A program made the position numbers and the translations under genes. Below the pieces are notes generated by a model. The model saw only the letters and a program-made list of their open reading frames with translations, had not been told where the DNA came from and ran no database searches. A DNA stretch of 64,000 nt from Candidatus Gastranaerophilales bacterium (GTDB lineage Bacteria > Cyanobacteriota > Vampirovibrionia > Gastranaerophilales > Gastranaerophilaceae): positions 1 through 64,000 of the forward strand of contig CALUSL010000007.1 of the NCBI GenBank assembly GCA_944323425.1, in the 5' to 3' direction. Below, one piece after another: positions 47,489 through 54,122 of the stretch. The number at the start of each line of letters is the position of its first letter. The stretch's first letter is position 1.

Positions 47489-47516
47489 TTGCTTAACAAA
47501 GTTGTTCAAGTATACA
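47489..47516 (+). promoter_or_regulatory. candidate promoter of the TPR-diguanylate cyclase pair
   Basis: TTGCTT (47489-47494) and TATACA (47511-47516), 16 bases apart. The ATG at 47525 begins 8 bases later with no ribosome site, so the transcript would be almost leaderless. Confidence 0.4.
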
Positions 47517-47524
47517 ATATACTT

Positions 47525-48607
47525 ATGAAATTCATTTTAAATATCTTGCAAAAAACCATCACTAAGGTTCTTCTGGTAATAATGTTTTTGTTACTTGTTT
47601 TTTGTATCTTTTTTTACTGGGGATGGTTTGAAAAGCAGATAAATAAATGTTTTGGATTTTACTATATTTATAAAGGCGACAAAGCCCAGCGCGGCGGAAA
47701 TCTGGAAAAGGCTATCAAGTATTACAAAAAGGGACTCGATAAATATCCTGAGCACTCTATAGCAAGATGCAATCTTGGTAATATTTACGTAAAGTATGAG
47801 GATTTTCAGGCTGCTGTGGACGAGTACGGCAAGGCTCTTGAGTATGATCCGAAGTATATTGTGTGCAGGATGAATAGGGGGATAGTCGCATCTGAAAAGC
47901 TGGCAGACTATGATCTTGCAATAAGAGAGTATGAAACCATTCTTAACACAAAAAGATTTACCGTTCATATTCCGTTTATATTTAATAGTGTAAAACCCAC
48001 AAGGGACAATAAAACAATTGCGCTTTATAATATGGGGCTTGCATATCGTGGAAAATCAATGCTTATTGGTGAAGAAACTTACACTTCAAATTATTATTTA
48101 AAAAAAGCAATAGAATGCTATGAAAAGGCTATGAAACGAACGAAGAAAAGCTTTGATTTGTATTTCAACTACGCACTGGCTAATCATATACTGGGGGATT
48201 ACAAAAAAGCCGGTCAGGGCTACTGTAAAGCAATGGAACTGGAACCGATGAGTTTTGATGCGCACTACAATCATGCTTTGCTCCTAAAACATCTGAAAAA
48301 GTATAAAGAGTCAATTGATGAGCTGGAAAAAGCAAGTCTGATTCTGGATACGGAAACTGATTTCGCTATTTCCCGTTATGTGTTCGATATAATCTATGAG
48401 GTCAACCAGAAACTTGTTGCTACGGACAGGTACAAATTCCTTGTCGAACAAAATAAGGATGAACACTGGGATCAGGAAAGCCAGCTTGTATACAAGGAAG
48501 GTAAAGTTTACCTATCTGACGACTACGAGGAGGAAATGAGAAAAAATTTCAGCAGATGTGCGGGTAGAATGTATTTTGCAAATAAAAAGGACAAGCCGAA
48601 TGACTGA
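47525..48607 (+). CDS. membrane-anchored TPR protein
   Basis: 360 residues from ATG 47525; an in-frame TTG at 47489 falls inside the predicted promoter. One N-terminal membrane helix (TKVLLVIMFLLLVFCIFFYWGWF) is followed by TPR repeats (AIKYYKKGLDKYPEHSIARC, AVDEYGKALEYDPKYIVCRM, AIECYEKAMKRTKKSFDLYF, AGQGYCKAMELEPMSFDAHY). It probably faces the periplasm or cytoplasm as a scaffold. It overlaps the diguanylate cyclase gene by 8 bases, so the two products may act together. Confidence 0.8.
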   Translation: MKFILNILQKTITKVLLVIMFLLLVFCIFFYWGWFEKQINKCFGFYYIYKGDKAQRGGNLEKAIKYYKKGLDKYPEHSIARCNLGNIYVKYEDFQAAVDEYGKALEYDPKYIVCRMNRGIVASEKLADYDLAIREYETILNTKRFTVHIPFIFNSVKPTRDNKTIALYNMGLAYRGKSMLIGEETYTSNYYLKKAIECYEKAMKRTKKSFDLYFNYALANHILGDYKKAGQGYCKAMELEPMSFDAHYNHALLLKHLKKYKESIDELEKASLILDTETDFAISRYVFDIIYEVNQKLVATDRYKFLVEQNKDEHWDQESQLVYKEGKVYLSDDYEEEMRKNFSRCAGRMYFANKKDKPND

Positions 48608-50072
48608 TATAAAGAAACCTGAACTGAATTTTTTGTGGGAGATATCAAATGTTTTAACAAAGAATTGTGATGAACAGGTGCTCGTAAACGAGTTGAAGGC
48701 AGTTTTTGAGCGTTTTCTTTTTGTGAAAAATTTTCAGGTGTTTATGTGGGACGAATTTTCGTCAACATTACGTGATTTTGTTAAAAGTTGGATAATTATA
48801 GACAAGAATTTGCAGAGCGAAAAAGTAAAAAAAATATTCGAGACGCTTTCTGAAAACTCACAGGACAACTTTATCCTGAATGGCGTGCTGCTGGATTTTA
48901 ATCGTGCAGCCCTTGAACTCGAGTATTGTTTTGACAGCTGTTTAAAAGAAGAAAACAATATTGTTTATTTTCCGCTATATAAAGAAAATACACTAAATGG
49001 CGTTTTGGAACTCAGTTTTGATGAAGTTCTGCCTAATGTAAAAAAATACGATTTCATTTTTTCTATAGGTATTGCGATAAGGCAAATATCAGCTGCAATC
49101 TCAAATAAACTAATGAAAGACTCTATGGCAAAGAACATAGATTTTTATAAATCTATGAAAAATATTGCGAAACTTATTGAAACACAGTATGAATTGACAT
49201 ATATTCTTCCGATAATCGGTGAAATGGTGGACAAATTTATTACAGACCATTTGATATATATCTTTATGAAGGATGAGGAATGCTATTTCAGACTGGTTTG
49301 GCCTCTGGAATGTAAGGATGAACGTATATATACGCTTATTGAACGTATAACAGACGAGCATCCGTCTGAAATAACAGCTGACAGAACGACCGGAGTCTGG
49401 GCAATAAAATCAGAAAATGAGGTTATCGGTGCAATTGCAGCCGGAAGTTATATGGACAAACTTGCTGATTCTGATATTGATTATTTGACCCTGCTTGCAA
49501 AACAAATTTCTGTGACCGTCCAGAAAGCAAACAGTTACGGACAAATGTTAAAATATGCTACGCTGGATGCTTTAACAGGTTTGAACAATCGTAGACAATT
49601 CGAAATTCGTCTTAATCAGGAGGTCGCAACGGCAAAACGTAAGAATAAACCGCTTTGCTGCATAATGCTGGACATAGACTATTTTAAGCGGGTTAATGAT
49701 ACTTACGGACATTCTGCCGGTGATTGTGTTCTCAAAAATGTTGCTCATATTATAAAACAGGAACTTCGTGAATACGATATTGCATCACGATATGGAGGGG
49801 AAGAGTTTTGTATTCTTTTGCCTTACACGACTTTAAATGAAGCCGGTTTTGTCGCGCAAAGGCTAAGAAAAGCTGTTGAAAAAACAGAGATAAATATTAC
49901 GGAAGAGCAGCTCGCCGGTGAAACAATTAACGTCTCAATCAGTGTCGGTGTAAGCAGTTACGATGATAGTATTGAAACACCGCAGCAGCTTTATCAAAAT
50001 GCTGATATGGCTCTTTATGAAGCAAAGCGCAGAGGACGAAACAGGGTTATAATGTATAATGATATAGTCTAG
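48600..50072 (+). CDS. GAF-type diguanylate cyclase
   Basis: 490 residues from ATG 48600. The N-terminal 320 residues contain two GAF-like segments (about 20-180 and 195-310). The C-terminal GGDEF domain is complete: DALTGLNNRRQFEIRL, IMLDIDYFKRVNDTYGHSAGD and the active-site YGGEEF. An inhibitory RxxD site (REYD) is placed five residues before GGEEF, so product feedback is expected. It makes cyclic di-GMP, which usually controls motility and surface attachment, fitting the flagellar genes in the window. Translationally coupled to the TPR gene. Confidence 0.93.
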   Translation: MTDIKKPELNFLWEISNVLTKNCDEQVLVNELKAVFERFLFVKNFQVFMWDEFSSTLRDFVKSWIIIDKNLQSEKVKKIFETLSENSQDNFILNGVLLDFNRAALELEYCFDSCLKEENNIVYFPLYKENTLNGVLELSFDEVLPNVKKYDFIFSIGIAIRQISAAISNKLMKDSMAKNIDFYKSMKNIAKLIETQYELTYILPIIGEMVDKFITDHLIYIFMKDEECYFRLVWPLECKDERIYTLIERITDEHPSEITADRTTGVWAIKSENEVIGAIAAGSYMDKLADSDIDYLTLLAKQISVTVQKANSYGQMLKYATLDALTGLNNRRQFEIRLNQEVATAKRKNKPLCCIMLDIDYFKRVNDTYGHSAGDCVLKNVAHIIKQELREYDIASRYGGEEFCILLPYTTLNEAGFVAQRLRKAVEKTEINITEEQLAGETINVSISVGVSSYDDSIETPQQLYQNADMALYEAKRRGRNRVIMYNDIV

Positions 50073-50105: not shown

Positions 50106-50996
50106 TTATTTGTAGTTTATTTCATAATATCCGTCATTTATATAAAAAGTCATTGTAAATTGCTCTCCTTTGTATGACTTCGGCGGCGGATAGTATTGCG
50201 GCAGGCTCATAAACATGTAATAAACAGCATCATTCATACTTTTATTGTCCGAGAGTTTCGAAAAATTCCTGTTAATAAGTTTGCCGGTAGAATCCAACGC
50301 AAAACTCACTTCACATCTGCCTTCACCTTTTACGGAAGTTACTTTTAAATTAGAAAAAAGAGCGCTTCTCAGAGCCACTTTGTAATTTTTAATCTCCTCG
50401 TCTGCTGCTTTTTGAGTGGATGTTTGTTTCGGTACAGGTGCTTTAGCAGTTTGTTTAGTATTCTTTACCTGTTCCGGTGTTTTGGCTTTCTCTGGCTTTT
50501 GGGGACGATTTTTTGTCGTTTTTACTTCCTGCTTTTCTTCTTTTTTTGTGGAAGGTGCAGGCGTTTCTTGCGGTTGAACTATAACATTTTTTATAATTTT
50601 TATTACCTGTGGTTCTTGTTCTGCAGGCTCTTGATTTACCGGTTCTTCATTTTTTTTTTGCTCAACCGGTGAAGGCAGTTCGTCGTTCCATATTGTGTCA
50701 ATATCTGGTATTTCCGTTTTTTGAACGGAGGATGAGGGAGTCTGTTTCGTTTTTGGTTCCGGCTGTTCATTCCAGGCAAAAATCCATATTAGCAGAGCAA
50801 GTACAACACAAACAGCAAATATACTCCACGAAATTATGTCAGATTTTTCAAACGGAATTCGTGCTTTTTGCGGTATGTTTTCTTGAACATATTCTGCATG
50901 TTTCTGCTCTTTTGTTTCAGAAAAATCATTATTTCCGCAATCACAGTAATCAGGTTTTGTTTGATATATTTGACCGCATTCCGTACATTTATACAT
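50106..50996 (-). CDS. zinc ribbon-TonB-like membrane protein
   Basis: 296 residues. N-terminal zinc ribbon with Cys4, Cys7, Cys18 and Cys20 (CTECG and CDCG). One membrane helix at about 54-76 (IISWSIFAVCVVLALLIWIFAW). A Pro/Lys/Glu-rich spacer to about 205. A C-terminal TonB/TolA-like domain follows (SALFSNLKVTSVKGEGRCEVSFALDSTGKLINRNFSKLS, then YYPPPKSYKGEQFTMTFYIN). A cytoplasmic zinc ribbon on a TonB protein is unusual. Last gene of the four-gene minus-strand envelope cluster, 51 bases after the other TonB-like gene. Confidence 0.75.
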   Translation of the reverse strand: MYKCTECGQIYQTKPDYCDCGNNDFSETKEQKHAEYVQENIPQKARIPFEKSDIISWSIFAVCVVLALLIWIFAWNEQPEPKTKQTPSSSVQKTEIPDIDTIWNDELPSPVEQKKNEEPVNQEPAEQEPQVIKIIKNVIVQPQETPAPSTKKEEKQEVKTTKNRPQKPEKAKTPEQVKNTKQTAKAPVPKQTSTQKAADEEIKNYKVALRSALFSNLKVTSVKGEGRCEVSFALDSTGKLINRNFSKLSDNKSMNDAVYYMFMSLPQYYPPPKSYKGEQFTMTFYINDGYYEINYK

Positions 50997-51047
50997 CTGT
51001 TCTGCCTCTTTTTTCGCCTGACTGAATTATTTTAGCATAAAAATTCT

Positions 51048-51797
51048 TTATTTTATTCTTTCGTAATCGGAATAATCTGATGGCGTGGAATACCTTGAGG
51101 TACGGGCAATCGTGAATCCGCCTTCTACATTCGTTATGACTCTTTTAGACTTTTCCGGAAATTTTAAAATACTTTGTCCCTGATAACTCAGCAGTACCGG
51201 TTTTATCTTTCTTACCGCCATATCAGTGTATTGAGAATTTCTTGACCAAACTTTCAGATTAGATATACGTCCGAATTTGTCTACTGTAAAAGAGAACTCA
51301 AATCTTGTACCTATTGGAGCTGCCAGTACAACATCTCTCATAACCTGATTCTGGAGATTACTTCTCCATTCGTTCCAGGCTATAATTTCTTCTTCCTCCG
51401 GGGTTAGTTTTTTCTGCGGAGGTGCTTTTTCCGGTTCTTTTGTTACGGTTGTGTTCGTGTCTGCTTTAGGCTCCTGTTTTTTTACTACTTCTTGTTTTAC
51501 TTTTTTGGGTGTTTGAACTTTTTTTGGCTCTTGAACAGTAACTACTGTTTCTGTAATGATTTTTGGCTTTTGCTTTGGCTGGACAATAACTGTTTCTGTA
51601 TTATTTGCGTGCTCTTTTACGCTTGCAACATGGTTTTTGAGCGTGTTTTGAACAGGTGCCGGAGCTTCTTCTGTTATTATTTCCAGTTTAAAATCAGCAT
51701 TTTCAGCCCGAATTGTTTTGGGCATTTCGGGTTTTAGTGCAATGACTGCTGCTGTCACTGCTATTATTAAGATTATAGCTGCTTTTAAAAAATTCAT
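51048..51797 (-). CDS. TonB-like energy-transducing protein
   Basis: 249 residues. N-terminal membrane anchor (FLKAAIILIIAVTAAVIAL), a Lys/Pro/Val/Thr-rich extended region (about 35-145), then a C-terminal TonB/TolA-type domain (EWRSNLQNQVMRDVVLAAPIGTRFEFSFTVDKFGRISNLKVWS). Proteins of this shape span the periplasm. No ExbB/ExbD genes are adjacent; instead the polytopic FHA-like protein gene overlaps its start by one base. The outer-membrane partner is unknown. Confidence 0.75.
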   Translation of the reverse strand: MNFLKAAIILIIAVTAAVIALKPEMPKTIRAENADFKLEIITEEAPAPVQNTLKNHVASVKEHANNTETVIVQPKQKPKIITETVVTVQEPKKVQTPKKVKQEVVKKQEPKADTNTTVTKEPEKAPPQKKLTPEEEEIIAWNEWRSNLQNQVMRDVVLAAPIGTRFEFSFTVDKFGRISNLKVWSRNSQYTDMAVRKIKPVLLSYQGQSILKFPEKSKRVITNVEGGFTIARTSRYSTPSDYSDYERIK

Positions 51798-53410
51798 TAA
51801 TCTTTATCCAGTTTTGATTTGATTTCATCTAGAACGTAAATGTCGAATTTTGTCTGGCTGAGCATATATGTTTCAGCAATCAGCAATGCTGTCGGAACCA
51901 GTGCTGCTACAAGGCTCAGGAACAACCCCTGAAGGTCTCCGCCTATTTCTGTCATAAAGTAGGAAATGTTCATTGAAAACTCAATAAATATTATTGCAAC
52001 TGCTATGGTCAGTGAACGAATTCTTTCCGAGTTGATTCTTCTGACTGCCTGGAGTCCGTATATTGTGACACCGTGGTGTTGGTAGTCGCTGAAGCCGTCA
52101 TTTTTTATTACCTGAGATGCCTGAATTTTCTTGCTGCATAGAAAAGCATTTACAAAAGAGAAAAATGCAAAGATAATCAAAAATGTTGCGAGTACAAGAA
52201 AAACAGGACTGAGACGCAAGCCTGATATTCTTACCCATCCTGCTGCTTCGGGAAAACACATTGCCAGCGTATTTGAAACACCGTAAGCAAGAAATGGCGC
52301 TGTCAGTATACCGATAAGTATTTCTCCGGTTGATTTTAGTTGCAGATTAAATATTTTTTCTTTTATGTAATTTATTTTTGTTGAGCTGAGATTGTTTATA
52401 TATCTTTCAATCCAGAGCTGATATTCTTTTACAATTGCTTCAAAATCCTCACGGTATTCGTATTTGTCGAGTTCTTTTGTCATTTCTGCATTGCTGCTTT
52501 TAAAGTATCCGCAGGCAATTGCGAGTGTTGCCATTACTCCTGTAAACAGAAGTGAGACCAGCGCTGCAAATGCAGCCATTTTATTCATGTTCATATAATA
52601 TATGAGGTTTATTGCATAAAACGCAATTATGAACAGTCCTGATATTATTAGCATAAATTTTTCTGCAATAGCAGAGGCTGCTGAAATTTGTTTTGTAATT
52701 TTGTTTTGAAGATATAGGAAAACTCCCTGTTTTAGGACAAGGCATATACCAAATATCAGTATGGTGAATATAACTAGTGCTTTGATGTTTGTGGGCAAAT
52801 GTAAATAGTTCTTTGATTCCACAATGGAAAGCCCGGTCAGATAGTTCGATACTCCGAATGCACAGATAAAAGCACTGAATAGCATTGCAATATGCAGGAA
52901 AATACCTGTTTTGAAATTCATTGATATTTTATTTTTCAGGTCATTGATAACATATCCGACCTGTTTTATGATTGCCACTCTTGCTTTTTCTATATCTGCT
53001 TTTCTTTTTTCAATTTTAATTCTTGTTGCTGTGTTTACGTTATTTCCGTAAAGCCCCTTCATGTCATCTTCTGTTAAATCTTCCTGCGCAATCATTGATA
53101 CTGTTTTTTGTACAGGTGCTGCTGCCTGTGCCAGTTTTATGCTTATGAATTCATTAGTTCCGTCTATCAATAGCTTGCAAACTTTGTCTATTCTAAGTTT
53201 CTGAACAGGTTGTCCTTTGAATAATACTCTGCTGTTTGAAAATGTGTTTACCAGATTACATACATTTTCAGCCGGATTATACTCAAGTGTAAGAATTAAT
53301 TCAAAGTCCAAATCAAGTTTAAAATCACAGTTGTCTGTTGTTCCGATATTTATTACTTCTTTTTCCTGAAAATGTTTTTCGTTTTTTGATGATGAAATTA
53401 TAACCGGCAT
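51797..53410 (-). CDS. polytopic membrane protein with degenerate FHA-like N-terminus
   Basis: 537 residues. Residues 1-95 resemble a forkhead-associated fold (VINIGTTDNCDFKLDLDFEL..., FSNSRVLFKGQPV, LLIDGTNEFISIKL), but the phosphothreonine-binding Arg and the SxxH motif are absent. About eight membrane helices follow (around 168-195, 206-232, 250-275, 282-305, 365-390, 400-428, 462-485, 492-518), with a charged cytoplasmic loop at 305-362. The last two helices vaguely recall ExbB/TolQ (LFLSLVAALVPTALLIAE). No known family recognised. Between the VWA gene and the TonB-like gene. Confidence 0.65.
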   Translation of the reverse strand: MPVIISSSKNEKHFQEKEVINIGTTDNCDFKLDLDFELILTLEYNPAENVCNLVNTFSNSRVLFKGQPVQKLRIDKVCKLLIDGTNEFISIKLAQAAAPVQKTVSMIAQEDLTEDDMKGLYGNNVNTATRIKIEKRKADIEKARVAIIKQVGYVINDLKNKISMNFKTGIFLHIAMLFSAFICAFGVSNYLTGLSIVESKNYLHLPTNIKALVIFTILIFGICLVLKQGVFLYLQNKITKQISAASAIAEKFMLIISGLFIIAFYAINLIYYMNMNKMAAFAALVSLLFTGVMATLAIACGYFKSSNAEMTKELDKYEYREDFEAIVKEYQLWIERYINNLSSTKINYIKEKIFNLQLKSTGEILIGILTAPFLAYGVSNTLAMCFPEAAGWVRISGLRLSPVFLVLATFLIIFAFFSFVNAFLCSKKIQASQVIKNDGFSDYQHHGVTIYGLQAVRRINSERIRSLTIAVAIIFIEFSMNISYFMTEIGGDLQGLFLSLVAALVPTALLIAETYMLSQTKFDIYVLDEIKSKLDKD

Positions 53411-53423
53411 ATTATTTTACCTC

Positions 53424-54122
53424 TTATCTTCCAATTGCTTTTAAAAACTCTCTTGATGCCCTGTCTGCATTTTGGGCAGGCGAGACAATAAGCTTTTTCT
53501 CACCCAGTACAGGTGTAAGTTTCTCTTTTACTAAATCCAGTTTTTCCGGATGCGCATATACAAACATCATTGCTATATCCGGTGCATATTTTTTTACTGC
53601 AGAAACATTATCGGGCAATGTACTCCAGTTTATTTGTTTTGAAACATTGCCTTCGTTTTCAAGATCGCCTATGACTACAACAGCAGGCGTGTAACCCTCT
53701 TTTTTCATTGTAAGACAGTGTGCGAATGCTTTTTTTATTGCTTCACCGTAAGCGGTTCCGTATTCTTCCGGATTGTATCGGGTAAAAGCTTCCATTGCCT
53801 TTTGTATTCCACTGTTGTTATGCGGTGTTCCTTCGTATATTAGGTATGAATTTTCTGATACTTTAAGTATTTTAATCTTATCTTCCGGATCAAGAAGGGA
53901 ACAAAGTTGTTTTAAATATTTTTTCTGCTCTGTGAGTTCTTCCTGATTCGAGGCAGAAGAATCAACCACAAAAATAACTGCAGACGGTTTGAATTCATCT
54001 ATTTTTATACTTTTTATTCCTTTATAGAGGAGTTTTGTAACTATTGAAAGTATAAGAATAATTATTCCTAATATTATGATTTTTCTGTTTAACTTCACAC
54101 CTTTTCCCTCGATAATTTTCAC
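53424..54122 (-). CDS. membrane-anchored von Willebrand A domain protein
   Basis: 232 residues: an N-terminal membrane helix (IIILGIIILILSIVTKLL, about 14-31) and a VWA domain. The MIDAS metal site is complete: VDSSAS (DxSxS, about 53-57), a Thr in YGTAYGEAI, and VVVIGDLEN. VWA domains bind protein partners through the metal ion. First gene of the cluster with the FHA-like polytopic protein (13-base gap) and two TonB-like proteins. It resembles BatA/BatB-type single-pass VWA proteins in layout, without the rest of a Bat operon or a MoxR ATPase. Confidence 0.8.
   Translation of the reverse strand: MKIIEGKGVKLNRKIIILGIIILILSIVTKLLYKGIKSIKIDEFKPSAVIFVVDSSASNQEELTEQKKYLKQLCSLLDPEDKIKILKVSENSYLIYEGTPHNNSGIQKAMEAFTRYNPEEYGTAYGEAIKKAFAHCLTMKKEGYTPAVVVIGDLENEGNVSKQINWSTLPDNVSAVKKYAPDIAMMFVYAHPEKLDLVKEKLTPVLGEKKLIVSPAQNADRASREFLKAIGR

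Follow-up and report, generated by a model that had tools for sequence, protein, structure and literature searches.

We infer that four adjacent genes of a gut-associated Candidatus Gastranaerophilales genome specify the inner-membrane and periplasmic half of one lineage-specific trans-envelope complex, and would put the probability of this reading at roughly 0.6. The interpretation builds on conserved linkage, on domain make-up and on the strict co-occurrence of two of the genes, all of which are observed at the level of sequence. The genes lie on the minus strand at positions 50106–54122 of the window, by which we mean the whole stretch of 64,000 nucleotides that was analysed. In the direction of transcription they encode a protein with a von Willebrand A domain (VWA; ORF 53424–54122 in the ORF list, 232 aa from a GTG start), a protein of 537 aa with an FHA-fold domain and eight predicted membrane spans (P537; 51797–53410), a TonB-like protein of 249 aa (T249; 51048–51797) and a TonB-family protein of 296 aa (T296; 50106–50996). 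The gaps between them are 13, -1 and 51 bases, and the coordinates agree with the preliminary description of the cluster. The genome is represented by a 2.03-Mb assembly in 47 contigs, in which P537 is single-copy. A TPR protein and a GAF-GGDEF diguanylate cyclase adjoin the cluster (47489–50072), and the same two kinds of protein are encoded near the P537 locus of another genome, G028 (L072:11509-14160).

Linkage was surveyed at 51 P537 loci from 41 genomes, the P537 score being above 200 throughout; L069, L070 and L066, the last of which has just an FHA domain of 99 aa, were left out, and three loci are cut by contig ends (L060, L067, L074). The gene order from 5' to 3' is (small TM protein)-(TrbI-like)-VWA-P537-T249-T296, the first two being variably present, and no other order occurs in any of the 51 loci. 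Chance can be dismissed as an explanation, as the same order recurs in 51 loci. VWA is directly upstream of P537 in 44 of them and T249 downstream in 45. T296 is present at 41, of which at least four are broken or cut by a contig end (the count takes in remnants of 65 aa in L077 and 102 aa in L078, a two-piece gene in L080 and the truncated L067), and all four genes are found together at 29. The preliminary description had left it to the neighbourhoods of P537 homologs whether the set is a unit, and at these loci it stays together rather than being routinely found apart. At one locus an opposite-strand gene lies between VWA and P537 (L068:6024-6881, genome G036), the sole interruption of this pair that was observed. 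At six loci VWA is absent, each genome concerned having VWA at another P537 locus; the VWA-less TrbI-P537-T249-T296 loci do not form one clade, and the tree requires two changes. Two of the four genomes of the window genus (G001 and G002) have lost T249 and have a broken T296 at this locus (L078; L077:8610-8870). Both carry a second TrbI-P537-T249-T296 locus (L053, L055), as if one transducer set could serve both P537 loci.

Of 99 genomes, 41 contain both VWA and P537 and none has just one of them; the other 58 relatives are without the set. This comparison started from 43 P537 matches, of which G040 (the 99-aa FHA domain alone) and G067 (18.5 bits) were left out. T249 is found in 39 of the 41 genomes and T296 in 37; G004 and G043 retain only short T296 remnants. 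In several genomes no intact T296 adjoins P537, the gene being absent or broken there, and G028, G030 and G036 carry it on a different contig. The set is confined to one family plus a single genome of another family (G075, with the full set), and when 386 and 385 genomes of the phylum were searched with P537 profiles, matches came from the same family, all others being weak (E 0.009 and above). Among relatives that carry names (20 loci), most are metagenome-assembled genomes labelled ‘Candidatus Gastranaerophilales’ or ‘Melainabacteria’. Two candidate homologs near the threshold, L069 and L070 (E 6e-4 and 8e-4), were dropped; the L069 match belongs to the NADH:quinone oxidoreductase/Mrp antiporter proteins of Pfam. 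Given this pattern of linkage and co-occurrence, we think it likely that the four products act as one complex.

The VWA protein consists of an N-terminal TM anchor and a von Willebrand A domain that scores 36.7 bits against a Pfam cut-off of 27. As most homologs begin with M(K)LNK, its start is likely the GTG at 54098, preceded by GAGGGAAAA, giving an extent of 53424–54098 on the minus strand and a length of 224 aa. The protein had been described as single-pass with a complete metal site, and alignment of 33 homologs confirms the latter: D54 and S56 are conserved in all 33, and S58, T123 and D153 in 32, the first three lying in the DSSAS segment (53949–53963, minus strand; residues 54–58 of the 232-aa ORF). 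Judged by the charge of the anchor flanks, the domain is probably periplasmic. In anchor columns 14–36, neither Asp nor His is among the up to four commonest residues per column of the 33 homologs, and the common residues include no acidic one. A defence system was considered and rejected, with VWA matching PADLOC TerY only weakly (0.044) and T296 matching PD-T4-6 weakly (0.001), over its anchor and low-complexity linker.

P537 appears to be the central component. Its AlphaFold model has a mean pLDDT of 83.5, and residues 1–95 (53126–53410, minus strand) are predicted to adopt an FHA fold that matches FHA-1 of Rv1747 with a Z of 13.2 and an rmsd of 2.2 over 93 residues (Foldseek E 5e-3). The eight-helix architecture with a degenerate FHA-like N-terminus, first proposed from the letters alone, is thereby reproduced in the predicted structure. 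Canonical FHA domains carry a phosphothreonine-binding Arg and Ser. The family lacks both at the corresponding positions 24 and 40, most of the 46 members having S, T or N at position 24, L at 40, T or S at 41 and Q or E at 43. In G040 a homolog of this domain stands alone, as a protein of 99 aa without the membrane part (L066:7039-7338).

The membrane part (residues 122–537; 51800–53047, minus strand) was modelled with eight spans at a pLDDT of 86.9 and is built from two four-helix repeats that have diverged. The halves align by hhalign at P 1e-4 over 148 columns when the second serves as query, and at about 1e-3 over 38 columns in the opposite direction; the clearest motifs common to both are GVSNYL/GVSNTL and NLIYYMN/NISYFMT. 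No Pfam family was matched by the P537 of the window, nor does any suit the family as a whole, since the 23 families matched in scattered members occur in at most three of the 46 each (with a best E of 1.3e-4 from a single protein), and PF01618 is absent among the Pfam matches of these members. P537 as a known transporter was likewise rejected: the supported Foldseek/VIA matches of the whole model are FHA domains, and the membrane-part model gave nothing above background (best Foldseek E 0.15; best Z 7.5, to CydDC with an rmsd of 5.5 across 162 residues). The idea of a machine put forward in the preliminary description survives on this point, no confident match to an unrelated transporter having been found in the membrane-part structure searches. 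ExbB and MotA are not among the structure matches listed, which is uninformative either way.

It had also been suggested that P537 might take the role of the energy unit. We consider it unlikely that P537 is the energy source, and the same holds for an arrangement in which P537 and VWA constitute an ion-driven motor unrelated to ExbB and MotA, where acids of the second repeat would bind H+ or Na+ and move the anchors of VWA and of the TonB-type proteins. Such a motor would account for nine residues of the second repeat that lie in or beside the helices and are invariant in all 46 members (E363, T370, S379, T381, E477, N481, S483, E513 and T514), three of them acidic, while in the spans of the first repeat K227 is the sole invariant polar residue; it would also suit the genome-wide inseparability of VWA and P537. 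However, the hhalign comparisons of P537 with the ExbB and MotA profiles gave no match (P 0.35 and 0.28), whereas ExbB against MotA, run as a positive control, gave 2e-6; none of the residues common in the VWA anchor is acidic; and the conserved polar residues of P537 fit a structural or transport role equally well. The full version of this proposal, an ion-driven P537-VWA motor of a fold unrelated to ExbB/MotA that moves an outer-membrane partner via two TonB-type transducers, we regard as less probable again.

A published parallel exists in the vWA force transducers, which sit beside TolQ-like genes without ExbD and have an SHLS motif or a membrane Asp in their anchors, according to the part of the article available to us (Mol Biol Evol 2025, PMC12204202). 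The cluster resembles these as there described in combining a single-pass, membrane-anchored VWA with a polytopic neighbour and no ExbD, and in this respect they favour the motor. It differs from them, as far as that part of the article goes, in that the VWA anchor has neither the SHLS motif nor a membrane Asp, that the neighbouring P537 is not TolQ-like by profile, and that TonB-type proteins are added.

The preliminary description counted both remaining proteins as TonB/TolA-like, which is upheld for T296 and only remotely so for T249. T296 has a zinc ribbon, probably on the cytoplasmic side, a TM segment, a rich linker and a C-terminal domain that lies narrowly above the TonB_2 cut-off (23.8 vs 22 bits), matches the TonB structure 6sly in the PDB (E 3.2e-4) and aligns with the ExbB-linked TonBs of the same lineage at P 2e-11; on these comparisons it is an authentic TonB domain. 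The ribbon cysteines C4, C7, C18 and C20 (50937–50987, minus strand) precede the anchor and are invariant in 31 of 31 homologs. T249 has a short TM anchor, a linker rich in P, K, Q, T and E, and a C-terminal domain remotely of TonB type, which aligns with the same local TonBs at P 1e-4 (reversed control 0.22). No Pfam match below E 0.1 was obtained for the T249 of the window, no Pfam TonB among 36 members and no match in the PDB, and its assignment to TonB is a weak one. T249-like C-domains occur in other families of the class (G082, G087, G092 and G097), with no P537-like neighbour visible among the ORFs read there. In addition, the TrbI-like gene is preceded at some loci by one for a single-TM protein of 60–96 aa, whose similarity to T249 is limited to the N-terminus with the anchor and KPxMH (L208:11572-11835, L093, L094, L095, L099, L102, L103 and L104).

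If the complex is energised at all, for which we see even odds, the TonB-type proteins direct attention to ExbB-ExbD, whose role as the energy source is possible but doubtful. The absence of ExbB beside the cluster, claimed at the outset, is correct for the locus in the window, as its contig (C7) has no MotA/ExbB-family gene, but does not extend to the rest of the genome. There, three such genes are found on contigs C5, C36 and C14, one beside TonB and TrbI-like genes and the other two accompanied by apparently MotB-like genes. All 29 genomes searched have one or more MotA/ExbB-family genes.

These findings invite an alternative in which ExbB-ExbD would use the set as an accessory transducer module: T296, and possibly T249, would replace the canonical TonB and drive the TrbI-like partner, while P537-VWA would only position them. 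This we hold to be a tentative option, less likely than not. The P537 locus of G028 lacks T296, which instead heads a same-strand TrbI-like-TonB-ExbB-ExbD-ExbD operon (L197:1566-6822, contig C29), so that the statement about ExbB does not hold for T296 in this genome. The C-domain shared by T296 and the ExbB-linked TonBs points the same way, as do the TrbI-like genes adjoining TonB-ExbB in the window genome (G000), G009 and G028, and the MotA/ExbB-family genes in all 29 genomes. On the other hand, ExbB-family genes also occur where P537 is absent, and therefore their presence is uninformative. The operon link is a single case and suggestive only, as the six congeners of G028 do not show it: T296 directly follows T249 in four, is separated from it by one gene in another, and in the sixth the contig ends before T249. 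Among the three genomes with T296 on another contig (G028, G030, G036), only G028 has it next to exb genes. Moreover, the ExbB-linked local TonBs have a His in the membrane anchor, whereas alignments of the homologs of T249 and T296 revealed no common His in theirs, which speaks against ordinary ExbB-ExbD coupling.

The proposal of a new trans-envelope machine stands in so far as the genes are a conserved envelope set, but it was incomplete, as it overlooked a fifth member present in most sister genera. This is a gene for a secreted TrbI-like protein, which lies upstream at 30 of the 51 P537 loci and in most genera comes before VWA. At E up to 0.1, PF03743 (TrbI) matches 12 of the 27 members, with 4.5e-6 as the best value; hhalign aligns the family with cyanobacterial VirB10-type proteins colinearly over 169 columns (P 4.4e-4), and PDB matches to ComB10 and CagY are weak (E 0.2). 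VirB10 of type IV secretion inserts into the outer membrane. Apart from the TrbI-like domain, a Gly-rich hydrophobic stretch of the upstream partner occupies a position similar to that of this insertion, but the protein differs from VirB10/TrbI in having, by its sequence, a signal peptide and not an inner-membrane anchor. A further difference is that the TrbI-like gene is absent from the locus in the window: in the four genomes of this genus a Rex-type regulator adjoins VWA in its place, and the window genome carries an unlinked full-length homolog on contig C12 (E 1.1e-87). From its domain, the TrbI-like protein is a candidate for the outer-membrane partner. Several TrbI/VirB10-like proteins are encoded in the window genome (contigs C12, C5, C17 and C4; L152-L155), among them an SLH-domain protein (L155:2208-3383) whose C-terminal part scores weakly against the TrbI-like profile (E 0.001). 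They may form a lineage-specific family of outer-membrane proteins.

The SLH-domain protein with its weak score hints at tethering roles in the lineage, and the complete metal site of VWA would suit adhesion or docking. Both would agree with a passive tether or adhesion complex of the envelope that takes up no energy, an explanation we rate as rather improbable, since two long-linker TonB-type proteins would make an unusual static tether and the invariant acids in the P537 membrane part would be left unexplained.

Comparison with known systems places the cluster among trans-envelope force transducers, and we would class it as one of these with a membrane protein of no fitting family at its centre. 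Like the Ton and Tol systems (TonB-ExbB-ExbD, TolA-TolQ-TolR), it includes in T296 a protein with a TM anchor, a rich linker and a C-terminal TonB domain, T249 being remotely of this kind, and an outer-membrane partner is plausible. Unlike these, its locus is without ExbB or ExbD genes, P537 has no ExbB profile match, the membrane His is absent, and a zinc ribbon, a VWA protein and a second transducer are added. GltJ of the Myxococcus Glt-Agl machinery carries a zinc ribbon, and this system likewise unites an FHA fold, TonB-type domains and a zinc ribbon in one envelope gene set. Gliding machinery of this kind would also be consistent with published accounts in which, in the portions available, GltG combines FHA and TonB domains (PMC3169522) and GltG and GltJ are TonB-like (PMC9389320). 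It is nevertheless very unlikely here, as the contig of the window has no MotA/ExbB-family gene and thus no motor of the AglR type, and as the domains are fused differently, the FHA domain being joined to a polytopic protein and not to a TonB protein. SjdR of Anabaena is comparable to T296 as a cyanobacterial TonB-annotated protein; the accessible part of its description reports a cytoplasmic N-terminus, a GltJ/AgmX-like region and no involvement in siderophore transport (PMC8262864). It differs from T296 in that no TonB C-domain aligned and, within that part of the description, no association with P537 or VWA appears. Among the open-licence papers listed in literature searches, no description of the present gene set was found.

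Of these explanations we favour the lineage-specific trans-envelope complex, which might work as follows. P537 would be the inner-membrane platform, its helices holding the membrane anchors of VWA, T249 and T296, and its degenerate FHA domain would face the cytoplasm and recruit a protein rather than phosphothreonine. The VWA domain would serve in the periplasm as a metal-dependent docking module, while T249 and T296 would cross the periplasm to an outer-membrane partner, most likely the VirB10/TrbI-like protein, so that force or a tether is transmitted between the membranes. Control input would likely come from the zinc ribbon of T296 on the cytoplasmic side, where the FHA fold of P537 may provide a second one. 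Energy, if any, would enter via the TonB-type proteins, either from an ExbB-ExbD motor encoded elsewhere or from P537.

The known systems that energise the outer membrane from the inner one, namely Ton, Tol and Agl, rely on one motor family, to which GldLM may be related according to the available part of one account (PMC9389320). TonB-type transducers and a VWA protein accompanied by an unclassified membrane protein would represent either a new platform for ExbB-ExbD coupling or a new motor, and in either case the replacement or extension of ExbB-ExbD would become directly testable. The Gastranaerophilales are gut bacteria with a little-studied envelope, and a P537-VWA motor, if true, would amount to an independent invention of trans-envelope force transduction within them.
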